64,000 nucleotides of DNA from Armatimonadota bacterium. Its GTDB lineage: Bacteria > Armatimonadota > Fimbriimonadia > Fimbriimonadales > Fimbriimonadaceae. Location: assembly GCA_016125185.1 (NCBI GenBank), contig WGMG01000006.1, positions 1,674,001-1,738,000 of the forward strand, written 5' to 3'. Under the pieces are notes generated by a model. That model had not been told where the DNA came from. It was given only the letters and a program-made list of their open reading frames with translations, and made no database searches. Of the stretch, positions 16,076-26,970 are shown one piece after another. The position numbers were made by a program, and so were the translations under genes. Each line of letters begins with the position of its first letter. Within the stretch, counting starts at the first letter, position 1.

Positions 16076-16951
16076 TTAAGCCGCCATCATGCCGTAGATT
16101 TGGCTCGCCTCATCAACTTTCTTCCGCACTTCTTCACCGATCTCATGGACGATTTCGGAGGTTAGGCCCAAAGTCTCGATCAATTGCGGGGCGAGCGGCC
16201 CGATGGGTCCTTTATTGTCGTAATAGAACGATTTGTTCATCCAATCCGCCACCGCTAAAATCGCAACCGTGATCGAAATCTCACCACTGTCGAACGGACC
16301 TTCGTGCAGTCGGATTCCTTCGACGATTTTCTCGGGAAGCTCCCATTTGTCCGCGACGATCGCGCCGACTCCGGCGTGCGTATCGCCGAGGAACAGAAAC
16401 TCTTCTTCCTCGTAGCTGTTGCAGTTCTGGCAGGCTCGAAGCACAAGCTTCTGGTACGTCTGCTTGAAATTGCAGTAGAAGAACATGCGTCCGACATCGT
16501 GCAGAATGCCGATGGTCGCAATCTCGTCCGCTTGCTTGCGGTCCACGTTCAGCTTGGAGCACAGAGCTGTACAGGCCGCTGCAGTGGCAAACGAATGCTG
16601 CCAAAATCGGCGCATACCGTCTGCATCGACCGGTCCCTTCGACGAGAAAGCCGCGATCGAGCCGACGCTCAGGGTAATAGTGCGTACCTGCTGGATGCCC
16701 AAGATCAAAACCGCCTGACCTACGCTGGTGACTTGTCGCGAAAGGCCGTAATAGGCCGAGTTCACGATGCGAAGCACCTTGGAGGCCAAAGCCTGATCGC
16801 CAGAGATAATCTGGTCGATACGGTGCATGTCGGGTTCCTGACGATTGGTTTCGTCGAGAACCTTGGCAACTGCCGTAGGCAACGGCGGGAGTTCCTTGAG
16901 CGACTGCTCAAGCCTTTTCCGGATAACTAGCGCTTCTGCATCAATGACCAT
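16076..16951 (-). CDS. HDOD-domain signalling protein
   Basis: A 291-residue HDOD protein (an HD-GYP relative without a clear catalytic metal site). The domain opens with LKELPPLPTAVAKVL and contains the typical SGDQALASKVLRIVNSAYYG segment, a QAVLILG stretch and a later LHDVGR with a following C-terminal helical part. HDOD proteins act in bacterial signal networks, often beside chemotaxis or flagellar genes as here. I chose the ATG at 16949-16951: it overlaps the cheA stop by 11 bases and has GAGGT upstream. A TTG eight codons earlier (16975) lacks a ribosome site. Its place between cheA and fliD points to a motility-related role. Confidence 0.9.
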   Translation of the reverse strand: MVIDAEALVIRKRLEQSLKELPPLPTAVAKVLDETNRQEPDMHRIDQIISGDQALASKVLRIVNSAYYGLSRQVTSVGQAVLILGIQQVRTITLSVGSIAAFSSKGPVDADGMRRFWQHSFATAAACTALCSKLNVDRKQADEIATIGILHDVGRMFFYCNFKQTYQKLVLRACQNCNSYEEEEFLFLGDTHAGVGAIVADKWELPEKIVEGIRLHEGPFDSGEISITVAILAVADWMNKSFYYDNKGPIGPLAPQLIETLGLTSEIVHEIGEEVRKKVDEASQIYGMMAA

Positions 16952-18980
16952 TTTCCAAACCTCGAGTGAACTCAAGAACCGAATTCACATCGACAATGAG
17001 CGCCACACGTCCATTTCCAAGGATTGTTGCGCCCGATAGACCCTTCAACTCCCCGCAGTACTTACTGATGGATTTAATGACGACCTCTTGTTCCCCAAGC
17101 AGCCGATCCACAACGAGACCAACCTTCTGGTCCGCTGAACCGACGACTACAACATAATCATCGGTATGTTCGCCCGCAAAACTTTGCTTAACTTTGAAAA
17201 GTTCGCGAAGTTTCAACAACGGCACAGTTTGCCCGCGTAGGAGCAGAACTGGTCGCTTGCCAACCTTCTGAACTTCCATCGATGCCGTCGCGATGGTCTC
17301 GAGGACCGATCCAATCGGCATGACGTAATCGACTGCGCCGACCCGCGACAGCAGCCCACCCATGATCGCTACCGTCAACGGCAGCTTCAAAATGATCTTC
17401 GTGCCTTCGCCCGGCGTGCTTTCGATGTCGATGATTCCGCCCATCGCCTGGATGTTCGCTCGTACGATATCCATGCCCACGCCACGGCCGGAAACGTCCG
17501 TGACTTCCTTCGCCGTGCTGAATCCACTGCTGAAGATGAGGAGTTGAGCGTCGCGATCGGTTAGTCGCGCCGCCGCTTCCTTCGTCATCAGCCCCTTCTC
17601 TACCGCCTTGGCGCGAAGCTTGTCGGGATCGATGCCTCGTCCGTCGTCGCTGAGTTCGACCCAAATCGCGTTGTCTTTGTGCTTGGCCGTCAAAAGAATC
17701 GAACCACCTTCCGGCTTGCCCTTCTTCTTTCGTTCGGCCGCGTCTTCCAAGCCGTGGTCCAGCGAGTTGCGGACCATATGGATCAACGGGTCGCTGATCC
17801 CTTCGATGACGGATCGATCGACTTCCGTCTCGCCGCCCTCGATCGTGATCGAAACCTGCTTGTTCAACTTTCGCGAGAGGTCGCGCACCATGCGCGGGAA
17901 TCGCTGGAACACGGTATCGATCGGGAGCATTCGTGCTCGCATGATCTGCTCCTGCAGTTCCCCGGTTACGCGGGCGATGTGCCCAACTGTCTCCGCCAAA
18001 GCGTCCGTATTCTCCGAGTCGTTCACCTTGGCCGCGATGTTCGCGCCGATCTGGCTGAGGCGCGTTCGGTCGATGACCAATTCGCCAACCAGGTTCATCA
18101 AGGCGTCAAGGAGAGACACGTCCACGCGGATCGTCTGGCTCGCTTCTCGCTTCGGCTTGTCCGATTTAGCCCCGTCGCCTTCGGCTGCCGCTGCGACTTG
18201 CGTCGTCGCCGCATGGTCGTCGGCCTTGTCTTCCGAAACCGTGTACTTCTCAAACGTCACACTCGCGATTTCGCCGATCCCGTTCACGGTCTGAGTGGCT
18301 TCCTCGATCGAGGACTCCAGCGAGATCAGGAACTTCACATCGAAGTCAAACTCTTCGGCCTCCAGCTTGTCCTGAACCGGGTTCGAGGCCAGAACTTCAC
18401 CCAGCGAGCCCAGAGCCGTCATCACCATGAAGACGCGAACGTACTTCATCACGCACGAAGGATCGAGCGTAAGGTGAACCGTGTAGATGTTTTCGTGGTT
18501 CGGCAGTTCGGTCAAAGCTTCGTTGACCGATTCGGGCCACGCAAAGCCGCTCTTCGCCGTCGGAGCCGCTTGGCTCGCCCCTGCAGCCGACTTTCCTCCG
18601 GAAAGCATCTTTAGGCTAGCCAAAAGCTCGACCTCCGCTACATAGTCCTCGCCGCTCGAAGCCAAGTGCTCCTTGCCCGTGATCATCGCGTCGACCGTCT
18701 GAATCAAAGTCTCGCCAACCTCATGGTCGACGGTCAAAGCTCCATCGCGAACGAGATAGAGAATGTTCTCAAATTCGTGTACTAGTTCGGCGTAGCTGCT
18801 AAAGCCCATCGCCTTACTCGATCCCTTGATCGTGTGCGCCGCCCGGAAAATAGAGTTGATTCGCTCAGTGGTCGGCTCCGCTTCAAGTTTGCCAATTTCG
18901 CTTTCAAGGATGGAAAGCTGCTCCTCCGTCTCCTGGAGGAAAAGGTCCAGGTAGTCCGACATGTTGATGCCGTTGCTCAT
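16941..18980 (-). CDS. cheA: Chemotaxis histidine kinase CheA
   Basis: A 679-residue CheA. The HPt domain (1-110) has the phospho-accepting His49 in FRAAHTIKGSS. Residues 155-250 form a P2-like domain that would bind the response regulator. The dimerisation helices (about 280-345) contain LMNLVGELVIDRTRL. The kinase domain has the N box HMVRNSLDHGLE, G1 DDGRGIDPD and G2 GRGVGMDIV. The CheW-like regulatory domain fills about 525-665. CheA reads receptor state through CheW and phosphorylates CheY. It starts with an ATG that overlaps the cheW stop (TAATG). Confidence 0.97.
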   Translation of the reverse strand: MSNGINMSDYLDLFLQETEEQLSILESEIGKLEAEPTTERINSIFRAAHTIKGSSKAMGFSSYAELVHEFENILYLVRDGALTVDHEVGETLIQTVDAMITGKEHLASSGEDYVAEVELLASLKMLSGGKSAAGASQAAPTAKSGFAWPESVNEALTELPNHENIYTVHLTLDPSCVMKYVRVFMVMTALGSLGEVLASNPVQDKLEAEEFDFDVKFLISLESSIEEATQTVNGIGEIASVTFEKYTVSEDKADDHAATTQVAAAAEGDGAKSDKPKREASQTIRVDVSLLDALMNLVGELVIDRTRLSQIGANIAAKVNDSENTDALAETVGHIARVTGELQEQIMRARMLPIDTVFQRFPRMVRDLSRKLNKQVSITIEGGETEVDRSVIEGISDPLIHMVRNSLDHGLEDAAERKKKGKPEGGSILLTAKHKDNAIWVELSDDGRGIDPDKLRAKAVEKGLMTKEAAARLTDRDAQLLIFSSGFSTAKEVTDVSGRGVGMDIVRANIQAMGGIIDIESTPGEGTKIILKLPLTVAIMGGLLSRVGAVDYVMPIGSVLETIATASMEVQKVGKRPVLLLRGQTVPLLKLRELFKVKQSFAGEHTDDYVVVVGSADQKVGLVVDRLLGEQEVVIKSISKYCGELKGLSGATILGNGRVALIVDVNSVLEFTRGLENGH

Positions 18981-19447
18981 TACGCTGCCACCTCCACAAG
19001 CTTTTCAAGGTCAAGAATCGAAATCAAAACGTCCTTCACATTCACAATTCCCGTTACGTAGCCTTGGATGTCATTCGAAATGTCCACCGTATTCTCCTGG
19101 ATGTCATTCTCATTCACCGTCAAGACTTCGATGACGTGGTCGACTAACAAGCCAACACTGTTATGGTTGTCCTCAGTGACAATGACGAGACCGTCTTCTT
19201 TCACGACCGGCGACTCAATGCCCATCTTCAGGCGCAGATCGGTAACCGGCAGGGTGCGGCCGCGCAGATTCCCAAGCCCCAACAGATGGTCTTCGACGTT
19301 GGGAAGCGGGGTAACCTCTCGCCACTTGATGATTCCGGTGACGGAATCGACGGAAAAGGCAAAGTGCTCGTCGCCGAGTTGAAAACGGACAAACTTGAGT
19401 TCGTTGGCCACTTCAACGTCTTCATGAAGCTCTAAAGTATCTGACAT
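18980..19447 (-). CDS. cheW: Chemotaxis coupling protein CheW
   Basis: A 155-residue CheW domain that bridges chemoreceptors and CheA. Family features are FQLGDEHFAFSVDSVTGIIKW, PLPNVEDHLLGLGNLRGRTLPVTDLRLKMG and the C-terminal GIVNVKDVLISILDLEKL. It is the first gene of the leftward motility group cheW-cheA-HDOD-fliD and is divergent from the HAD phosphatase. Receptor, cheR, cheB and cheY genes are not in the window. Confidence 0.96.
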   Translation of the reverse strand: MSDTLELHEDVEVANELKFVRFQLGDEHFAFSVDSVTGIIKWREVTPLPNVEDHLLGLGNLRGRTLPVTDLRLKMGIESPVVKEDGLVIVTEDNHNSVGLLVDHVIEVLTVNENDIQENTVDISNDIQGYVTGIVNVKDVLISILDLEKLVEVAA

Positions 19448-19498: not shown

Positions 19499-20320
19499 AT
19501 GGCTATTCGACTGATTGCGATGGACCTCGATGGGACTGTGCTCCGCGAAGATCAAACGATTCATCCAGATCTCGCTGGATCGTTCTCACGGGCCCGCGAC
19601 GCCGGCATCCAATTGGCTATCTGCACAGGCCGAGCATTCCAGAGCACCAAACGCATCGCCTCCGCCATCGATTTCAGCGGTCCGCTGGTCTGCTCCAATG
19701 GTGCCCACGTCATCAACGATGAGGAAGAGGTGATCGGTGCCGAATTCCTTCCCGGCGATGTTCAAGAGTGGATTCTCGAATACGCCGACGAGAACAGCAT
19801 CCACGTGTCCTGCTATGGCGAGAATGGCGTCAGCACCCTCCGAGAGTCCGAGTGGCTCACCAAGTACAAGACCCTCGTCCGTGGCCTTGACATCCCCATC
19901 CTCGGGATGGAAGCCCTCAAGCAGAAGCCGCTTTTCAAAATCGTTCTAATCTGTTCCGCCGAAGTTCTACCGATCCATCGAGAAAAATTCGCCTTCCTCG
20001 TGGCCGAACAACGGGCTCAACTCACCGAAAGTGGGCCGGAATACCTGGAAATTTTGCCAGTGCAAGCCAATAAAGGAAATGGGCTTGCGAAGCTTGCTCA
20101 GTATCTGCGTCTGGACCGTTCGGAGATCGCCGCCATCGGCGACTATCGTAACGACCTGGAAATGCTAAGCTGGGTAGGGACGGCGGGGGCGGTAAAAAAT
20201 GCACTTCCCGAAGTCAAATCACTGGCTCAATTCGTCGTAAAAAGTAACGAAGACGGAGGGGTTGCGGAATTCATTGACAGGTGTATTCTGTTAAACTCTA
20301 ATATCGTTAGCGAGAGCTAA
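19499..20320 (+). CDS. Cof-type HAD phosphatase
   Basis: A 273-residue HAD-superfamily hydrolase of the Cof/YbjI group. Motif I is DLDGTV (nucleophile Asp9, Asp11). Motif II lies in the ICTGRAF region. The C2-type cap is followed by the signature KGNGLAKLAQYL and motif IV GDYRNDLEML. Such enzymes dephosphorylate sugar phosphates, FMN or similar metabolites; the substrate is unknown. It is the first gene of a rightward run, and the following secreted-protein gene starts 14 bases after its stop. Confidence 0.92.
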   Translation: MAIRLIAMDLDGTVLREDQTIHPDLAGSFSRARDAGIQLAICTGRAFQSTKRIASAIDFSGPLVCSNGAHVINDEEEVIGAEFLPGDVQEWILEYADENSIHVSCYGENGVSTLRESEWLTKYKTLVRGLDIPILGMEALKQKPLFKIVLICSAEVLPIHREKFAFLVAEQRAQLTESGPEYLEILPVQANKGNGLAKLAQYLRLDRSEIAAIGDYRNDLEMLSWVGTAGAVKNALPEVKSLAQFVVKSNEDGGVAEFIDRCILLNSNIVSES

Positions 20321-20333
20321 AAGGAAAAGGAAC

Positions 20334-21305
20334 GTGAGAGGGATAAAGATTGCACTGGTTTCAGCGGGCTTGATGTCGGCTATTTCGGCTTATGCGGGTA
20401 CTTTCAACGTCACAGCGCCGACCGACGGCAAGTGGCTCGGAACCACAAACACACTCAGCTTCACCGGTAAAGGTGCCAGCGTCCAGGTCACCGTCAAGGC
20501 GGTCGTCACTGGCCCCGATGGCTCCACCACCCTCACCACCACGGTCAACCCCGACGTAAACGGCGACTTCTCAGGAACCCTCGCCCTCACCTTCTCAACA
20601 TCTTCCGCCCAAGGCGACTACACCATCGCCGTCACTGCCACCGAGCCGGGCAACACCTACTCGCCTGTCAATCTCGACGTCCACGTCGACACCAAAACGC
20701 CGAAGCTGCTCGAATACAGCCCAGCGCAGAACTCGTTCGCCAAAGGCACCGTGCCCATCCTCTTCAAGATTCTTGAAAACAACATGAAGGAATGGCGTAT
20801 CACGGTTGGCGGGGCAGACATTCCCAACAACACGGGCACCACCGAAACCACGCTTTCGGTCAACTACGATTCATCCACCCTTGAAAACGATGGTTCCCAG
20901 AACATTGCGCTGACCGCAAAGGACCAAGCCGACAACACGCTCAGCTTCACCATTCCGCTGACGATCGACCGCAAACCCCCAGTTTCTACGATTCAGTTCC
21001 CGCAGAACGGAAGCCCGATCCGACCGAGAAGCGATGTCAACATCGTGATCGACGTCGCCGATCAATTCTCCGGCTCGGTCGATCTGACCGGACTCGACGT
21101 TGTGATTCAAAAGACCGACGGCACCTTCATTACCCGGGCCGCTCGGCAGTCGTGGCGAGACATCGGCAATAATACTTGGCGATGGACCGGCCGACTTCGC
21201 TACCGATCCGGACTGCCGCCGATCTTTAAGGTCGTTGCGTCCGCGCTCGATAAGGCGGGTAATGTAGCTACCAGACAAGAAGTAACTGTACATCCAGGCG
21301 CATAA
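20334..21305 (+). CDS. Secreted Ig-like domain protein
   Basis: A 323-residue exported protein. It has a signal peptide (cut near SAYA, residue 21) and then three Ig-like beta-sandwich units of about 95 residues (22-118, 119-210, 215-315). They carry bacterial Ig phrases such as VNLDVHVDTKTPKLL, LTAKDQADNTLSF and ASALDKAGNVATRQEV. The start is GTG after AAAAGGAAAAGGA. It lies 13 bases before the PorV-like barrel gene and was most likely co-expressed with it and the caspase-fold gene. A binding or adhesive role at the cell surface is inferred from the fold only. Confidence 0.72.
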   Translation: MRGIKIALVSAGLMSAISAYAGTFNVTAPTDGKWLGTTNTLSFTGKGASVQVTVKAVVTGPDGSTTLTTTVNPDVNGDFSGTLALTFSTSSAQGDYTIAVTATEPGNTYSPVNLDVHVDTKTPKLLEYSPAQNSFAKGTVPILFKILENNMKEWRITVGGADIPNNTGTTETTLSVNYDSSTLENDGSQNIALTAKDQADNTLSFTIPLTIDRKPPVSTIQFPQNGSPIRPRSDVNIVIDVADQFSGSVDLTGLDVVIQKTDGTFITRAARQSWRDIGNNTWRWTGRLRYRSGLPPIFKVVASALDKAGNVATRQEVTVHPGA

Positions 21306-21318
21306 AAGGAATTAGTTC

Positions 21319-22449
21319 ATGAAGAAACGGATTTTGTACACCGCCCTAGGCACGCTAGGGCTCTCGGCCGCTGGGTTTGCGCAGATTCCCGATCTGCTCA
21401 ACACCATCGACGCAGGAAGCCGCTCCATGGGGGCCGGCAGCGCCTTTGGCGTCACCTCAGCCGATACTCAAAGCATTCTGAACAACCCGGCTGGAATTGG
21501 ATTCCTGTCGTCGAAGACGTTTGGAATCGCTTACCGAAACATGCCAAAGTCGACGACGCAGATTTTCGGCGACATCGCGAACCCAACTTACTCTTCGACC
21601 GGTCAAAGCGGCAAAACTCAATTGGCCCACTTCGGCTATGCCTTTCCGCTGAAGAAGGGCGGAACCTTCGGCTTCAGCTACCAGGTCACCGGTTACCTCG
21701 ACGATTTTCGATCTGGAACGAACGTGACGATCGGCGGCTTCAGCGGCGCAACCTACGATGAGGCCGTCAAAGCCAAAACCGCGATGTACACCCTCGCGAT
21801 CGGTCGCACCAATGGCGCGGGCGACAAATCTTTCGGCTGGGGTCTGACCATTGCCAATTTGGACCTGCGCGACCGACAGCTTGGTTTTGTTCCCGGCAAC
21901 CCGCAAACGGTTCTGATCGACGCTGACAACTCGGCTTCGACCTGGGGCGTCGGACTGGTGGCCGGATTCCAATCGATTCCTGCCAACCGTCCAAACACGA
22001 CCATCGGCGGCAGCATCCGCACCCCCATCAAGATGAGCTCGAACACGTTCGCAAACGGCGTGTACGATGTTCTTCCCGGTCAAGCCTCCTTTGGTATGGC
22101 TACCCGCAAGGATCGACTGCGCGGCAAGGATGACTACCTGATCCTTGGCGGTCAAGCCTCCTACTACTTCGGCGGAAGCGGCACCGGCCTCTTCGACCGA
22201 AACAACCAATTCGTTTTCGGCCTCGGTGCCGAATACAACATCGTTCGAGACAGCGCGACGATTCCGATTCGAGTCGGTCTTTCGTCCATCGCCTCGGGCG
22301 GCAGCCAGTTCGGAGACCGCAACGCATTCACCTTCGGCTTCGGATATCGACCCAAGGCTCAGCCCTGGTCGGTCGATCTGAACTACGGAAAGCCGAATGG
22401 CGGCGGAAGCGACTTCGCCTTTGCCTTCAATTATCGAGTGGAGAAATAA
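21319..22449 (+). CDS. PorV/PorQ-type (UPF0164) outer-membrane barrel protein
   Basis: A 376-residue outer-membrane beta-barrel with a signal peptide (cut after GFAQ). The N-terminal segment GSRSMGAGSAFGVTSADTQSILNNPAGIGFL matches the conserved start of the PorV/PorQ-FadL-like family. The rest alternates polar and aromatic residues as expected for barrel strands (TFGFSYQVTGYL, FAFAFNYRVEK). In Bacteroidetes, PorV shuttles type IX secretion substrates to the sortase PorU; other relatives are passive channels. A ribosome site AAAGGAA precedes the ATG. The gene lies directly between the Ig-like gene and the caspase-fold gene. Confidence 0.82.
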   Translation: MKKRILYTALGTLGLSAAGFAQIPDLLNTIDAGSRSMGAGSAFGVTSADTQSILNNPAGIGFLSSKTFGIAYRNMPKSTTQIFGDIANPTYSSTGQSGKTQLAHFGYAFPLKKGGTFGFSYQVTGYLDDFRSGTNVTIGGFSGATYDEAVKAKTAMYTLAIGRTNGAGDKSFGWGLTIANLDLRDRQLGFVPGNPQTVLIDADNSASTWGVGLVAGFQSIPANRPNTTIGGSIRTPIKMSSNTFANGVYDVLPGQASFGMATRKDRLRGKDDYLILGGQASYYFGGSGTGLFDRNNQFVFGLGAEYNIVRDSATIPIRVGLSSIASGGSQFGDRNAFTFGFGYRPKAQPWSVDLNYGKPNGGGSDFAFAFNYRVEK

Positions 22450-22459
22450 GGACATCAAT

Positions 22460-23776
22460 ATGCGACGAGTGATTACAGGGATTGTTGGGCTAGCTCTAAC
22501 AGCATTTGCTTTTGGCCAATCTTGGACCGGTTCATACGATGCCGGACTCAAAGCCGCCAAGGCTGGAAAGTGGGAAGAAGCCAGGAAGGACTTCATGCAA
22601 ACCAAGGCGTACCGACCGGACGATGTGGCCACCGCCACCATCCTCCCCGGACCGGTAACTGAGCAAAGGAAGTGGAGAAATGGCTCGCCCTACTCGCCAA
22701 ACTTTCTCGCCGCCTACTGCCTCTATCGCGAAGGCATGGAATCCAAGCCGGACAAGGCCACCAGCCTCTTCAAGTCCGCCGCCGACGAATTCGAAGCCCT
22801 CATCACCAAGAAGCAGGTCAGCCAAGAAACCGTCTATTTCCTCTACTCGATCTATGGTCGTTTGAATCAGTCCGACAAGAAGGAAGCGCTGGCATCGAAA
22901 ATCGCCCAGCCGAACTGGAAAGTTGACACCGAAATCCTCGCTCCCGAAGAAATTTCGGCGATGGGTGCCGGTGGAGCAACCACCAGCGATAACGGCGGCA
23001 TCGTCAGCGTCGTTGATGCAGGCAAGGTCGATGGCAATGGCAACGCGGCCATAACCCCAGGTGGCCCCGTACCGATCATCTCGACCAAATATGCGCTCAT
23101 CATCTGCAACGGTGACAACAAGCTGCCAGGTCAGCAGTTACCCTACGCCGCCGATGACGCCGCACTCCTCAAGGATTCACTTTCAACCAACGCTGGCTAC
23201 CCGGCTGACAACATTGTCACGCTCACGAACGTGAATGCGGCCGCAATGCTCGCCGCCGCTAAGGACCTTGCGTCCAAAATGCCGGCCGAAGGAACGCTGT
23301 TCTTCTACTTCACCGGCGTGGGAGCCAACGTCGACGACCGCGACTGGTTCGCTGGCGTCAACACCGAGATCGCCACCGACACCTCCAGCATGGTCCGAAA
23401 GAACGACGTCTTCTTCCCCTTCACGCAGAAGGGCATCAGCGTCTACGCGTTCTACCAGGTCCCTCGCCCGTCCGTGAACGGTGCTTTCTTCGGCGAAGAA
23501 GAGTCCCGCGCTGGAAGCATCTCGCAGATGCAATCCACCATGGAAGGCGGCTCGGTCTTCTCGATCTTCCGCAACGGTAAAAACGTTGGTGCTTTCACCG
23601 ACGCCATCACGCAGGTCTTCTCCGACCTCCATACCAATTCGATTCCGATCGGCGACTTCGGCTGGGCCGTCTTCTACAAGATTCGCCAAGGAGCAATCGG
23701 CGAGTCCGGCGGTGGAAGCAAGCAGACGCCAACCCTGCCGATTCTGCAGTTCCTGTCGTCCACATCGCGATTCTAA
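22460..23776 (+). CDS. Secreted caspase-fold protein, catalytic residues lost
   Basis: A 438-residue exported protein. The signal peptide ends near AFGQS, a helical TPR-like region covers 25-160, and a caspase/C14-like domain covers about 210-420. Fold signatures are YALIICNGDNKLPGQQLPYAADDAALLKDSL and LFFYFTGVGANVDDRDWFAG. The usual SGHG carries the catalytic His; here it is TGVG (Val287). The strand that should end in D-x-C-R-S-G reads FYQVPRPS (about 331-337), with no Cys. It is therefore probably a pseudo-protease. I chose ATG 22460 because AATAAGGA precedes it and a signal peptide follows; upstream in-frame codons lie inside the barrel gene. Confidence 0.78.
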   Translation: MRRVITGIVGLALTAFAFGQSWTGSYDAGLKAAKAGKWEEARKDFMQTKAYRPDDVATATILPGPVTEQRKWRNGSPYSPNFLAAYCLYREGMESKPDKATSLFKSAADEFEALITKKQVSQETVYFLYSIYGRLNQSDKKEALASKIAQPNWKVDTEILAPEEISAMGAGGATTSDNGGIVSVVDAGKVDGNGNAAITPGGPVPIISTKYALIICNGDNKLPGQQLPYAADDAALLKDSLSTNAGYPADNIVTLTNVNAAAMLAAAKDLASKMPAEGTLFFYFTGVGANVDDRDWFAGVNTEIATDTSSMVRKNDVFFPFTQKGISVYAFYQVPRPSVNGAFFGEEESRAGSISQMQSTMEGGSVFSIFRNGKNVGAFTDAITQVFSDLHTNSIPIGDFGWAVFYKIRQGAIGESGGGSKQTPTLPILQFLSSTSRF

Positions 23777-23794
23777 ATCACTCAACTAAAACCA

Positions 23795-23830
23795 AAGTCC
23801 CCGAGAATCAAACTCTCGGGGACTTTTTTA
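23795..23830 (+). terminator. Intrinsic terminator after the barrel/caspase-fold operon
   Basis: AAGTCCCCGAGA pairs perfectly with TCTCGGGGACTT (12 base pairs, 7-base loop) and runs into TTTTTTA. It lies 18 bases past the stop of the caspase-fold gene and separates that operon from the subtilase. Confidence 0.92.
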
Positions 23831-23952: not shown

Positions 23953-26900
23953 ATGTTTAGCGTTCATTCTCTCCTGAGAACTTCGCTTCTCGGGTGTGGA
24001 CTCGCCGCCGCCGTCTTGGCGGGCGCGCAGGGTCGAGGCACCCAGAACCGAAACTTCATCGGCCCCATCGACGGCATGGCAAACCAAAAGCCGCCTCGAA
24101 ACGTCAAACTGGTCCCGCGCCCGTACACGGTCCTTGTCGCTTACAAGTCCACAATGGCCCAACGAAGCATGGCGACCGTCGAAAACCAACTCGGCCTCTA
24201 CGAAGACACGTCGATTCACTCGCCGTACTTCAAACGGTACTTCATCAGCCAAGAGGCGCAGTTGAGAGGCATGACCGTGGATCGGGCCATCGCCGCCCTC
24301 CATACCCTGCCCAACGTCTCGCGTGCCGAGTACGACATGCCGGTCTCGCCCGACCAGGTCAACGACCCGCAATACAATCTTCAGTGGGGCCTTAACAACA
24401 CCGGCCAAACCGGCGGAACACCCGACGCCGATGTCGACGCGCCCGAAGCCTGGCCGCTCATCCCCACCGTTAGCCCCGTCACCGTCGCCGTGCTCGATGA
24501 CGGCATCGAAGTCGGCCACCCCGATCTCCAAGCCAACGCCCTGGTCAACAGCGGCGAAATCCCCAACAATGGCATCGACGACGACGGCAATGGCTTCGTA
24601 GACGACTACCTCGGTTGGGACTTTGCTGATAATGACAACGATCCCACCCCGCCCGATACGTCGTTTTCCCACGGAACCCACGTCTCCGGCATCGTCGCCG
24701 CCGTCTCCAACAACGCGTTAGGCGTTGCCTCGGCGTCTCGCAACGTCAAGCTTCTCGGCGTCCGCTTCTACCGCGGACAATCCACCTGGATCTCCGACCT
24801 CATTCTCGCCGTCGACTACGCCCGCATCCGCGGCGCAAAGGTTATCAACATCTCCTACAACCTCGACGGCTGGACCCAGCTCCTCGTTGACGCTTTCGTC
24901 CGACTCAAAAATGCGGACGGCGTCGCCATGCTCTCTGCGGGCAATAACGGCGAAAAGGACCCCGCTCGTCTCGGCATGCTCGCCCAGGCGCCAAATCTCT
25001 GCTTCGTAGCCGCCACCGACCACAACGACCAGCTCGCCTCGTTTTCCAACTACGGCGCGCAGGTTCAGGTCGCGGCCCCCGGCGTGGACATCCTCAGCAC
25101 GGTCCCCTTCGGTAGCTACGACACCTACAGCGGAACCTCGATGGCCTCGCCTTTCGCCGCGAGCATCATGGGCACCATCCGCGCCCTCTACCCAAGCATG
25201 ACCTATTCACAGGCCATCGCCCGCCTCGGCCTCACCTGCGATCACAAGCCGCAACTCAACGGAAAAGTCACTTATGGCCGAGTCAACCTCGCCAATGCCA
25301 TTCAAGACGACTCCGTGGCTCCCGCTCCCGTCAGCGGCCTCACCCTGCTCCGACGTTCGGCTGGTACCTTCCTCGTGCAGTTCATGGCCTCCGGCGATGA
25401 CGGCATGGTCGGCGCGGCCAACTACTACGACGTCCGCTACAGCACGTCGCCCATCACGGCTGCGAACTTTAGCTCGGCACCCCAGAACCTATTCGCCACT
25501 CCGACTCCGGGCGCGGGCAATCCGGTCAAGACCAGTATCGGCGGCCTCGTCCCCGGCTCCAGCTACTACATAGCCGTAAAAGCCCTCGACGATGTCGGCA
25601 ACGAGTCGACGATCACCACCGCCGGACCGTTCACCGTTCTCCCGGCCTTGGTCTACGAAAACATGGATGGCGCGACATCGCCGTTCACGCCAACCGGCAC
25701 CTGGGCCAGAACGACCGACTACGCCAATTCGGGAAGCCAAAGCTGGACCGACAGCCCAGGCGGCAGCTACCTCAACAATGCCAACTCGACGCTGACCTAC
25801 AACAACGCCGTCAACGTCACCACGCCGATGGCCGTCACGTTCCTGATGCGCTACGACCTGGAAAGCAACTACGACTACCTGTACCTGGAAGTCTCCACCG
25901 ACGGCGGAGCCACCTGGTCTCAGTTAACCAAGACCACCGGCACGTCCGGTTCAGTCTTCAAGTCGTTCACGGCCTCCCTGTCCAACTATATCGGTCAGAC
26001 CGTGAGGCTCCGTTTCCACATGACCTCCGACTCCTCCGTCACTTACGACGGCGTCTACATTGATGACTTCGCCGTGAAGGCTCTCACCACGACCTTCAAC
26101 GACGACGTCGAGGGCGCAAACATGTTCGATCCGACCGGCTCCACGTGGGTCGTTAGCACCGAATCTGCCGCGTCGCCCACTCATGCGTGGAACGACAGCC
26201 CCGGCGCGAACTACGTCAACAACACCAACCAATGGCTCAAAGGCATCGTCAACCTCGACGCCGAAGCGAGCGGAAGCCCGTCGGTCACCTTCAAAGGACT
26301 TATCAACGTTGAGAACGGTTACGACTTCCTCAACGTGTCCACCTCGACCGACTTCGGTTCGTCGTGGGTGCCGCAAGCCAGCTACACCGGACTCGGAACG
26401 AGCTTCGCCTCGTACACGGTTCCGCTCGGCGTGCTTGGCACCGCCCGAGTCGGATTCCAGTTGACCAGTGACTCGTCCGTCGTCGCCAACGGCGCAATCA
26501 TCGATGACATTAGTGTCGTCGGTGAGCCTTGGGTTCAGCAGATCGACGGCACCGTCGGACTCAATGGATTCGGCGGCACCAAGAACTTCACGGTCAAGCT
26601 CCGAACGGGTTCGACGATCGTCGCGACCTACCCGGTCACCATGACCGGTCTCACTGGCACCTTCTCGTTCCAAACCGACAAGTTCGGCATGTACGACGTA
26701 GTCATCGAAGGCCCATCCTACCTCCGACGCGTAATTCCCGGCGTAAACGTCACGGCGTTTACCACCGTTTCGACTAGCCTGGTTAACGGCGACATCGATG
26801 GTAATAACGTCATCGGCACGGCGGACTTCAACGCCATGCGCGCTGCATGGGGTGCCGTCCCCTCCAGTTCCAACTGGAACCCCAACGCCGACCTCAACGG

Positions 26901-26970
26901 CGACGGAGTCATTGGCGTGGCGGACTTCAACATCCTCCGCTCCAACTGGGGCGCCCTCGGCGACCTCTAA
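23953..26970 (+). CDS. Secreted S8 subtilase with C-terminal dockerin domain
   Basis: A 1005-residue exported serine protease. After a signal peptide (about 1-25) comes a propeptide-like region (45-135). The S8 catalytic domain (about 170-445) has Asp182 in VLDDGIE, His240 in SHGTHVSG, oxyanion Asn331 in SAGNNG and Ser396 in SGTSMASP, so the active site is intact. A fibronectin III-like unit (about 455-565) and two similar MAM/jelly-roll-like beta units (about 565-710 and 715-855) follow. Next come a carboxypeptidase-regulatory-like unit and a dockerin type I domain (about 940-1005) with two Ca-binding loops, GDIDGNNVIG and ADLNGDGVIG. The dockerin suggests attachment to a cohesin-bearing surface protein. 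No cohesin gene is seen here. Confidence 0.93.
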   Translation: MFSVHSLLRTSLLGCGLAAAVLAGAQGRGTQNRNFIGPIDGMANQKPPRNVKLVPRPYTVLVAYKSTMAQRSMATVENQLGLYEDTSIHSPYFKRYFISQEAQLRGMTVDRAIAALHTLPNVSRAEYDMPVSPDQVNDPQYNLQWGLNNTGQTGGTPDADVDAPEAWPLIPTVSPVTVAVLDDGIEVGHPDLQANALVNSGEIPNNGIDDDGNGFVDDYLGWDFADNDNDPTPPDTSFSHGTHVSGIVAAVSNNALGVASASRNVKLLGVRFYRGQSTWISDLILAVDYARIRGAKVINISYNLDGWTQLLVDAFVRLKNADGVAMLSAGNNGEKDPARLGMLAQAPNLCFVAATDHNDQLASFSNYGAQVQVAAPGVDILSTVPFGSYDTYSGTSMASPFAASIMGTIRALYPSMTYSQAIARLGLTCDHKPQLNGKVTYGRVNLANAIQDDSVAPAPVSGLTLLRRSAGTFLVQFMASGDDGMVGAANYYDVRYSTSPITAANFSSAPQNLFATPTPGAGNPVKTSIGGLVPGSSYYIAVKALDDVGNESTITTAGPFTVLPALVYENMDGATSPFTPTGTWARTTDYANSGSQSWTDSPGGSYLNNANSTLTYNNAVNVTTPMAVTFLMRYDLESNYDYLYLEVSTDGGATWSQLTKTTGTSGSVFKSFTASLSNYIGQTVRLRFHMTSDSSVTYDGVYIDDFAVKALTTTFNDDVEGANMFDPTGSTWVVSTESAASPTHAWNDSPGANYVNNTNQWLKGIVNLDAEASGSPSVTFKGLINVENGYDFLNVSTSTDFGSSWVPQASYTGLGTSFASYTVPLGVLGTARVGFQLTSDSSVVANGAIIDDISVVGEPWVQQIDGTVGLNGFGGTKNFTVKLRTGSTIVATYPVTMTGLTGTFSFQTDKFGMYDVVIEGPSYLRRVIPGVNVTAFTTVSTSLVNGDIDGNNVIGTADFNAMRAAWGAVPSSSNWNPNADLNGDGVIGVADFNILRSNWGALGDL

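Follow-up and report, generated by a model that had tools for sequence, protein, structure and literature searches.

A caspase-fold protein lacking its catalytic dyad is encoded next to a PorV/FadL-like outer-membrane barrel in the Fimbriimonadales

Results

The locus and its genes

The window, a 64,000-nucleotide stretch of DNA from a member of the Fimbriimonadaceae (Armatimonadota), contains a run of four closely spaced genes on the forward strand, the last of which encodes the protein considered here, a pseudo-caspase of 438 residues (22460–23776). The first gene, the usual upstream neighbour, encodes a HAD-type phosphatase, as named from its sequence (19499–20320), and is followed after 13 nt by a gene for an Ig-like protein of 323 residues that is predicted to be secreted (20334–21305; Big_13 matched at E 9.9e-6, just under the cut-off). 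A second gap of 13 nt separates this from the gene for a 376-residue outer-membrane beta-barrel (21319–22449), described as PorV/FadL-like from its structural model and a sub-cut-off match to the PorV_fam profile, and the pseudo-caspase gene begins 10 nt further on. Directly 3′ of it, on the same strand, lies a hairpin of 13 pairs with a T tail that resembles an intrinsic terminator (23794–23826); a terminator scan returned 9 sites against 6.1 expected, and this hairpin had the longest stem among them.

Upstream of the run is a divergent CheA–CheW gene pair (16941–19447, reverse strand), which is kept in many relatives. Downstream of the cassette a gene encodes an S8 subtilase that has MAM-like domains and, at its C-terminus, a dockerin-like stretch (23953–26970, forward strand); it also adjoins the cassette in L033, the closest relative, and was not found beside the other loci. 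A PADLOC search against known defence models gave no match for the Ig, barrel or pseudo-caspase protein.

Domain organisation of the pseudo-caspase

The reading frame is intact from the ATG at 22460 to the stop codon ending at 23776. A second in-frame ATG is present upstream, at 22397; the start at 22460 was preferred because it fits both the signal peptide and the orthologues. On a heuristic reading, residues 1 to about 20 form a signal peptide (22460–22519) with cleavage near AFAFGQ, and a signal-peptide-like N-terminus with a hydrophobic core was seen by the same means in 36 of 37 homologues. The helical domain that follows (residues 22–170; 22523–22969) is described as TPR-like from the helices of an AlphaFold2 model (residues 21–34, 38–51, 80–94, 97–116 and 122–134) and from the matches of some homologues to TPR families; this part of the protein also matches plain TPR proteins. 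Nowhere is the protein better conserved than in one stretch of this domain, WRNGxPYSPNFLAAY (residues 72–86; 22673–22717), which has invariant alignment columns and a conservation score of 0.77, compared with domain means of 0.52–0.55. A variable and mostly disordered linker (residues 171–204; 22970–23071; conservation 0.29, pLDDT below 50 at residues 171–200) then leads into a caspase-fold domain without catalytic residues (residues 205–438; 23072–23773), as placed by structural alignment to MALT1.

The initial annotation had recognised a C14-like caspase domain in this protein, and both profile and structural comparisons agreed with it. PF00656 (Peptidase_C14) covered residues 210–336 at E 3.6e-9 (37.1 bits, with a cut-off of 21.4) and was matched independently by 28 of the 37 homologues. 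The AlphaFold2 model, which was built on these 37 homologues, had a mean pLDDT of 84.1 and a pTM of 0.59, the low pTM being probably a consequence of the flexible linker. The caspase fold was predicted with confidence, and the best structural match of the C-terminal domain was the paracaspase MALT1 (3uo8; Z 22.8, rmsd 3.2 over 212 residues). MALT1 was likewise the top profile match among solved structures, although a search of those structures with the pseudo-caspase sequence alone had given nothing useful. By fold, then, the protein belongs with the C14 peptidases.

Loss of the catalytic residues

It does not belong with them as an active peptidase. Alignment to an intact paralogue from the same genome and to MALT1 placed Val287 (codon 23318–23320), in the local sequence TGVG, at the position of the catalytic His. 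The same paralogue ('IIADACRA') and MALT1 both placed Val334 (codon 23459–23461), in 'YAFYQVPRP', at the position of the catalytic Cys, with Tyr332 standing where the Asp of the DxC motif would be. The initial annotation, which had read both residues as lost within an intact frame, was confirmed. The loss extended to all the relatives examined within the order: among the 37 homologues position 287 was occupied by Ala (12), Val (9), Ser (4), Pro (4), Gln (2), Asn (2), Leu, Ile, Thr or Asp (1 each) and never by His, position 334 by Val (24), Thr (5), Ala (5), Ser (2) or Cys (1), and position 332 by Phe (19), Tyr (10), Thr (3), Asn (2), Ser (2) or Ala (1) and never by Asp. A displaced dyad was found in no orthologue of the order. 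A more distant family member (G038, family f3) reads 'TGAG' and 'VFQVDR' at the two sites. Generic C14 proteins of the Armatimonadota recovered by the same search retained GHG and/or DxC, so the loss is specific to the pseudo-caspase family.

Activity might persist by way of other residues, and K210, D295 and R336 are indeed invariant in the alignment of the caspase domain, while position 334 carries Ser or Thr in 7 of the 37 proteins. This is nonetheless very improbable, as position 287 varies freely and the alignment of 37 contains no other strongly conserved His, Cys or Ser within the domain. D233, which on our reading of the alignment is plausibly the second pocket Asp, was kept in 35 of 37, and other parts of the domain were better conserved than the former active-site loop. 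The protein is not expected to act as a cysteine peptidase.

The barrel and its relation to type IX secretion

The barrel gene lies immediately 5′ of the pseudo-caspase gene in 39 of the 41 loci that were named; the gap seldom exceeds about 30 nt, gene order and strand are the same, and the Ig-like gene is conserved 5′ of the barrel gene. The barrel scored 35.4 bits against PorV_fam (NF033709), for which the NCBI curated cut-off is 90, and is for this reason called only PorV-like; 33 of 34 barrel relatives matched PorV or PorQ profiles at E 0.01 or better. Its model (pLDDT 86) has a predicted barrel fold of the FadL/PorV type. It aligns best to FadL (Z 33.5, 324 residues), followed by the FadL-type chain in the BAM complex of F. 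johnsoniae (Z 28.8) and PorV of the type IX secretion system (T9SS; Z 26.2).

With FadL as the nearest structure, ahead of the BAM subunit and PorV, the barrel could be a FadL-type transporter of hydrophobic compounds, with the Ig protein and the pseudo-caspase as periplasmic helpers or binding proteins and no link to secretion or attachment. We regard this as unlikely. Although the barrel of the window itself falls below the PorV_fam cut-off, PorV/PorQ profiles recur throughout its family; some related operons, described below, encode an intact protease; and no FadL transporter is known to require a caspase-fold partner.

PorU, the sortase of the type IX system, is a family C25 protein with a caspase-like fold. 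A caspase-fold protein together with a PorV-like barrel recalls the attachment complex of that system (PMC5562754), and the pseudo-caspase might be a type IX component, the local counterpart of PorU. This too is very unlikely, since the catalytic Cys is absent and, in a search of 41 genomes, SprA exceeded the cut-off in none, 35 of the relatives giving short local matches only, and a C25 peptidase of any kind was found in 4 of the 41 and not in the genome of the window. One of the local matches to SprA (profile positions 599–686) falls in an 855-residue outer-membrane-like ORF (L116, 2316–4880).

Distribution and co-occurrence

Among 61 relatives the pseudo-caspase was found in 39, the barrel in 38 and the Ig protein in 38, and the three genes were missing together in nearly all of the others, five genomes of the same genus among them. 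Across the phylum, strong matches counted by hand placed the pseudo-caspase in 81 of the 291 Armatimonadota genomes searched, all of them Fimbriimonadales. The barrel was present in 76 of these 81; of the rest, one (G040) is cut at the start of a contig and four (G008, G131, G148 and G149) lack both barrel and Ig protein. Conversely, 76 of the 77 genomes of the order with a barrel also had the pseudo-caspase, the remaining one being cut at a contig end. In the four genomes without the partners the pseudo-caspase was intact or nearly so; in G008, G148 and G149 it directly follows the HAD gene (the G008 copy running into a contig end), and in G131 (L055) neither partner was found beside it or elsewhere at strong scores. 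Because barrel and Ig protein are absent jointly while the pseudo-caspase stays, the latter may have a degree of independent function. PorV-like genes at 20 other loci of the phylum (L126–L145) had no adjoining caspase, and viral contigs contained no relatives of the pseudo-caspase.

Two kinds of candidate were set aside. An apparent fusion of barrel and pseudo-caspase (an 858-residue frame in G025, L012, and also in L040) crosses scaffold Ns, and N-terminal matches in G245, G250, G259, G267, G269, G114 and others proved, with few exceptions, to be plain TPR proteins. A cassette on a contig labelled as a Methanoregulaceae archaeon (SJ84; L050) is close to a Fimbriimonadaceae copy (L051), and the label is probably that of a mislabelled record or a mixed bin. 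Two barrel genes (G039:C105 and G010:C10) each have one in-frame stop (TAA, TGA), reflecting decay or sequencing error.

For the pairs in which it was measurable, dN/dS was about 0.03–0.1 for the pseudo-caspase, barrel and Ig genes, values that are rough since several pairs were near saturation. By this measure the pseudo-caspase gene is under purifying selection, and with the family retained in 81 of 291 genomes of the phylum and dN/dS this low, the loss of the dyad is more than chance. The initial annotation had gone on to suggest that the protein has a conserved role, non-enzymatic and outside the cytoplasm. That view is supported by conservation, dyad loss, purifying selection and the signal-peptide-like N-termini, and a binding or scaffold role may be inferred from them.

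The pseudo-caspase might instead dimerise with, and regulate, an active caspase encoded elsewhere, for which FLIP(L) and caspase-8 offer a precedent (PMC7586951). The same genome does encode an exported-looking C14 protein with GHG and DACR intact (L117, 2611–5682; 1024 residues). However, this gene lies on a different contig and is unlinked to the cassette, the conserved genetic partners of the pseudo-caspase are the barrel and the Ig protein, and such regulation would leave the conservation of the N-terminal motif unexplained; we judge it decidedly unlikely.

Related operons with an intact dyad

Three genomes from a distant family of the Armatimonadota (G091, G095 and G094; family f12) have a gene for a long Ig protein, then a PorV-like barrel gene, then a gene for a long caspase protein, of 1377 and 1519 residues and with a C-terminal C14 domain; in G094 the caspase protein is split across contigs and the upstream Ig gene is also cut. 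Their dyads (loci L118, L119 and L122/L170) are intact, the motifs being FFAGHG/FDACRS, YFAGHG/YDACRN and FFAGHG/YDACRN. A profile of the long caspase, searched against the phylum at E 1e-8, recovered only these three genomes. G039 (family f4) has a second barrel gene, and the gene after it encodes a long protein, cut by the contig, with a pseudo-caspase N-terminal domain (E 1.4e-9). Two Ig–barrel pairs in G211 (L120 and L121) had no caspase as third gene by the profile used; downstream of them lie a sulfatase-like ORF and ORFs of unassigned function.

In a tree of caspase domains the pseudo-caspases joined the f12 operon caspases weakly (63/7). Between the N-terminal regions, HMM comparison gave about 8–10 bits for L119 and L122 and nothing for L118, and one hhalign comparison gave a probability of 83%. 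As both the join and this similarity are weak, the case for homology of the third genes rests mainly on synteny, which suggests that those of the f12 operons, G039 and the Fimbriimonadales are homologous. Dyads in their normal place in the f12 homologues point to a secondary loss, and the simplest reading is a single loss of the dyad, no later than the base of the Fimbriimonadales.

Discussion

The analysis provides a predicted caspase fold, loss of the dyad throughout an order, purifying selection, conservation and co-occurrence of the operon, and intact dyads in the f12 operons. The predicted export, together with the conservation of an outer-membrane partner and of an N-terminal surface, points to a scaffold or adaptor role at the outer membrane. 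We propose, giving it about an even chance, that the pseudo-caspase is an exported pseudo-protease that serves as a scaffold or adaptor in an outer-membrane complex with the barrel and the Ig protein and that derives from an active protease. The protein would be exported by Sec, as predicted, and would reside in the periplasm or at the outer membrane, where the TPR-like domain, with its invariant WRNGxPYSPNF surface, would bind a partner and the dead caspase domain would offer a second docking surface, working by binding and not by cutting. In most genomes pseudo-caspase, barrel and Ig-like protein would form one complex, in which the barrel may tether the pseudo-caspase. As to origin, the protein would most likely descend from the active protease of an Ig–barrel–caspase operon, which lost both its dyad and a long middle region as the Fimbriimonadales arose. 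On this simplest reading, the enzyme of an envelope protease module died in the order and was retained as a scaffold or binding subunit.

We suggest more tentatively that the Armatimonadota possess an outer-membrane module distinct from type IX secretion, with a FadL/PorV-type barrel as the tether for a caspase-fold protein, together with an Ig-like protein; the module would be an active surface or periplasmic protease in a few lineages and would have a non-catalytic subunit in its place in the Fimbriimonadales. This is possible, though we would not call it probable. If true, it would provide an evolutionary before-and-after pair, an active protease and a non-catalytic subunit. Bacterial pseudo-proteases rarely hint at their partners, and here a dead caspase stands in a fixed context with an outer-membrane barrel, with an apparently active version of the operon in the same phylum as a natural comparison for the change from enzyme to scaffold. 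Pairing of a caspase fold with a PorV/FadL-type barrel is thereby suggested beyond type IX secretion, which bears on the origin of PorU:PorV.

In the type IX system, too, a protein with a caspase fold is paired with an outer-membrane barrel of the FadL/PorV type, and the nearest functional parallel is PorV, which binds and tethers the sortase PorU (PMC5562754). PorU, however, is a catalytic C25 protein, whereas the protein described here is C14-like and dead, and because SprA did not exceed the cut-off and this genome has no C25 peptidase the operon is not filed as type IX. BamG of the Bacteroidota BAM complex is likewise a barrel of the FadL family, and it binds partner proteins instead of serving plain transport, but its partners are BamA, BamH and BamM and none is a caspase-fold protein (PMC12611786); going by that paper, the BAM chain aligned to our barrel model (9n2d_B) would be BamG. 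MALT1, the closest structure to the pseudo-caspase, is eukaryotic and active and shares about 16% identity with it. Human FLIP(L) also has a caspase fold without catalysis but is a cytosolic regulator of caspase-8 with death-effector domains (PMC7586951), and no common loss event is implied.

The closest known class is that of the bacterial pseudo-orthocaspases, which have a p20-type domain without the His–Cys dyad, both residues usually being replaced, and in some cases TPRs (PMC6426788). The pseudo-caspase falls within this class as a p20 domain without the dyad. Pseudo-orthocaspases were described mainly from Alphaproteobacteria and Cyanobacteria, with Y–S, Y–A or F–S in place of the dyad and two pocket Asp residues kept, and the Armatimonadetes go unmentioned there (PMC6426788). 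The two pocket Asp residues, a reported trait of that class and not a strict definition, are not both retained here, and the replacements are mostly small or aliphatic. Our search of open-licence papers returned no description of an Ig–barrel–pseudo-caspase operon. Pseudo-orthocaspases as such are thus already known; what differs here is the loss of the DxC Asp in all 37 homologues and the placement of the gene in an operon beside barrel and Ig genes.
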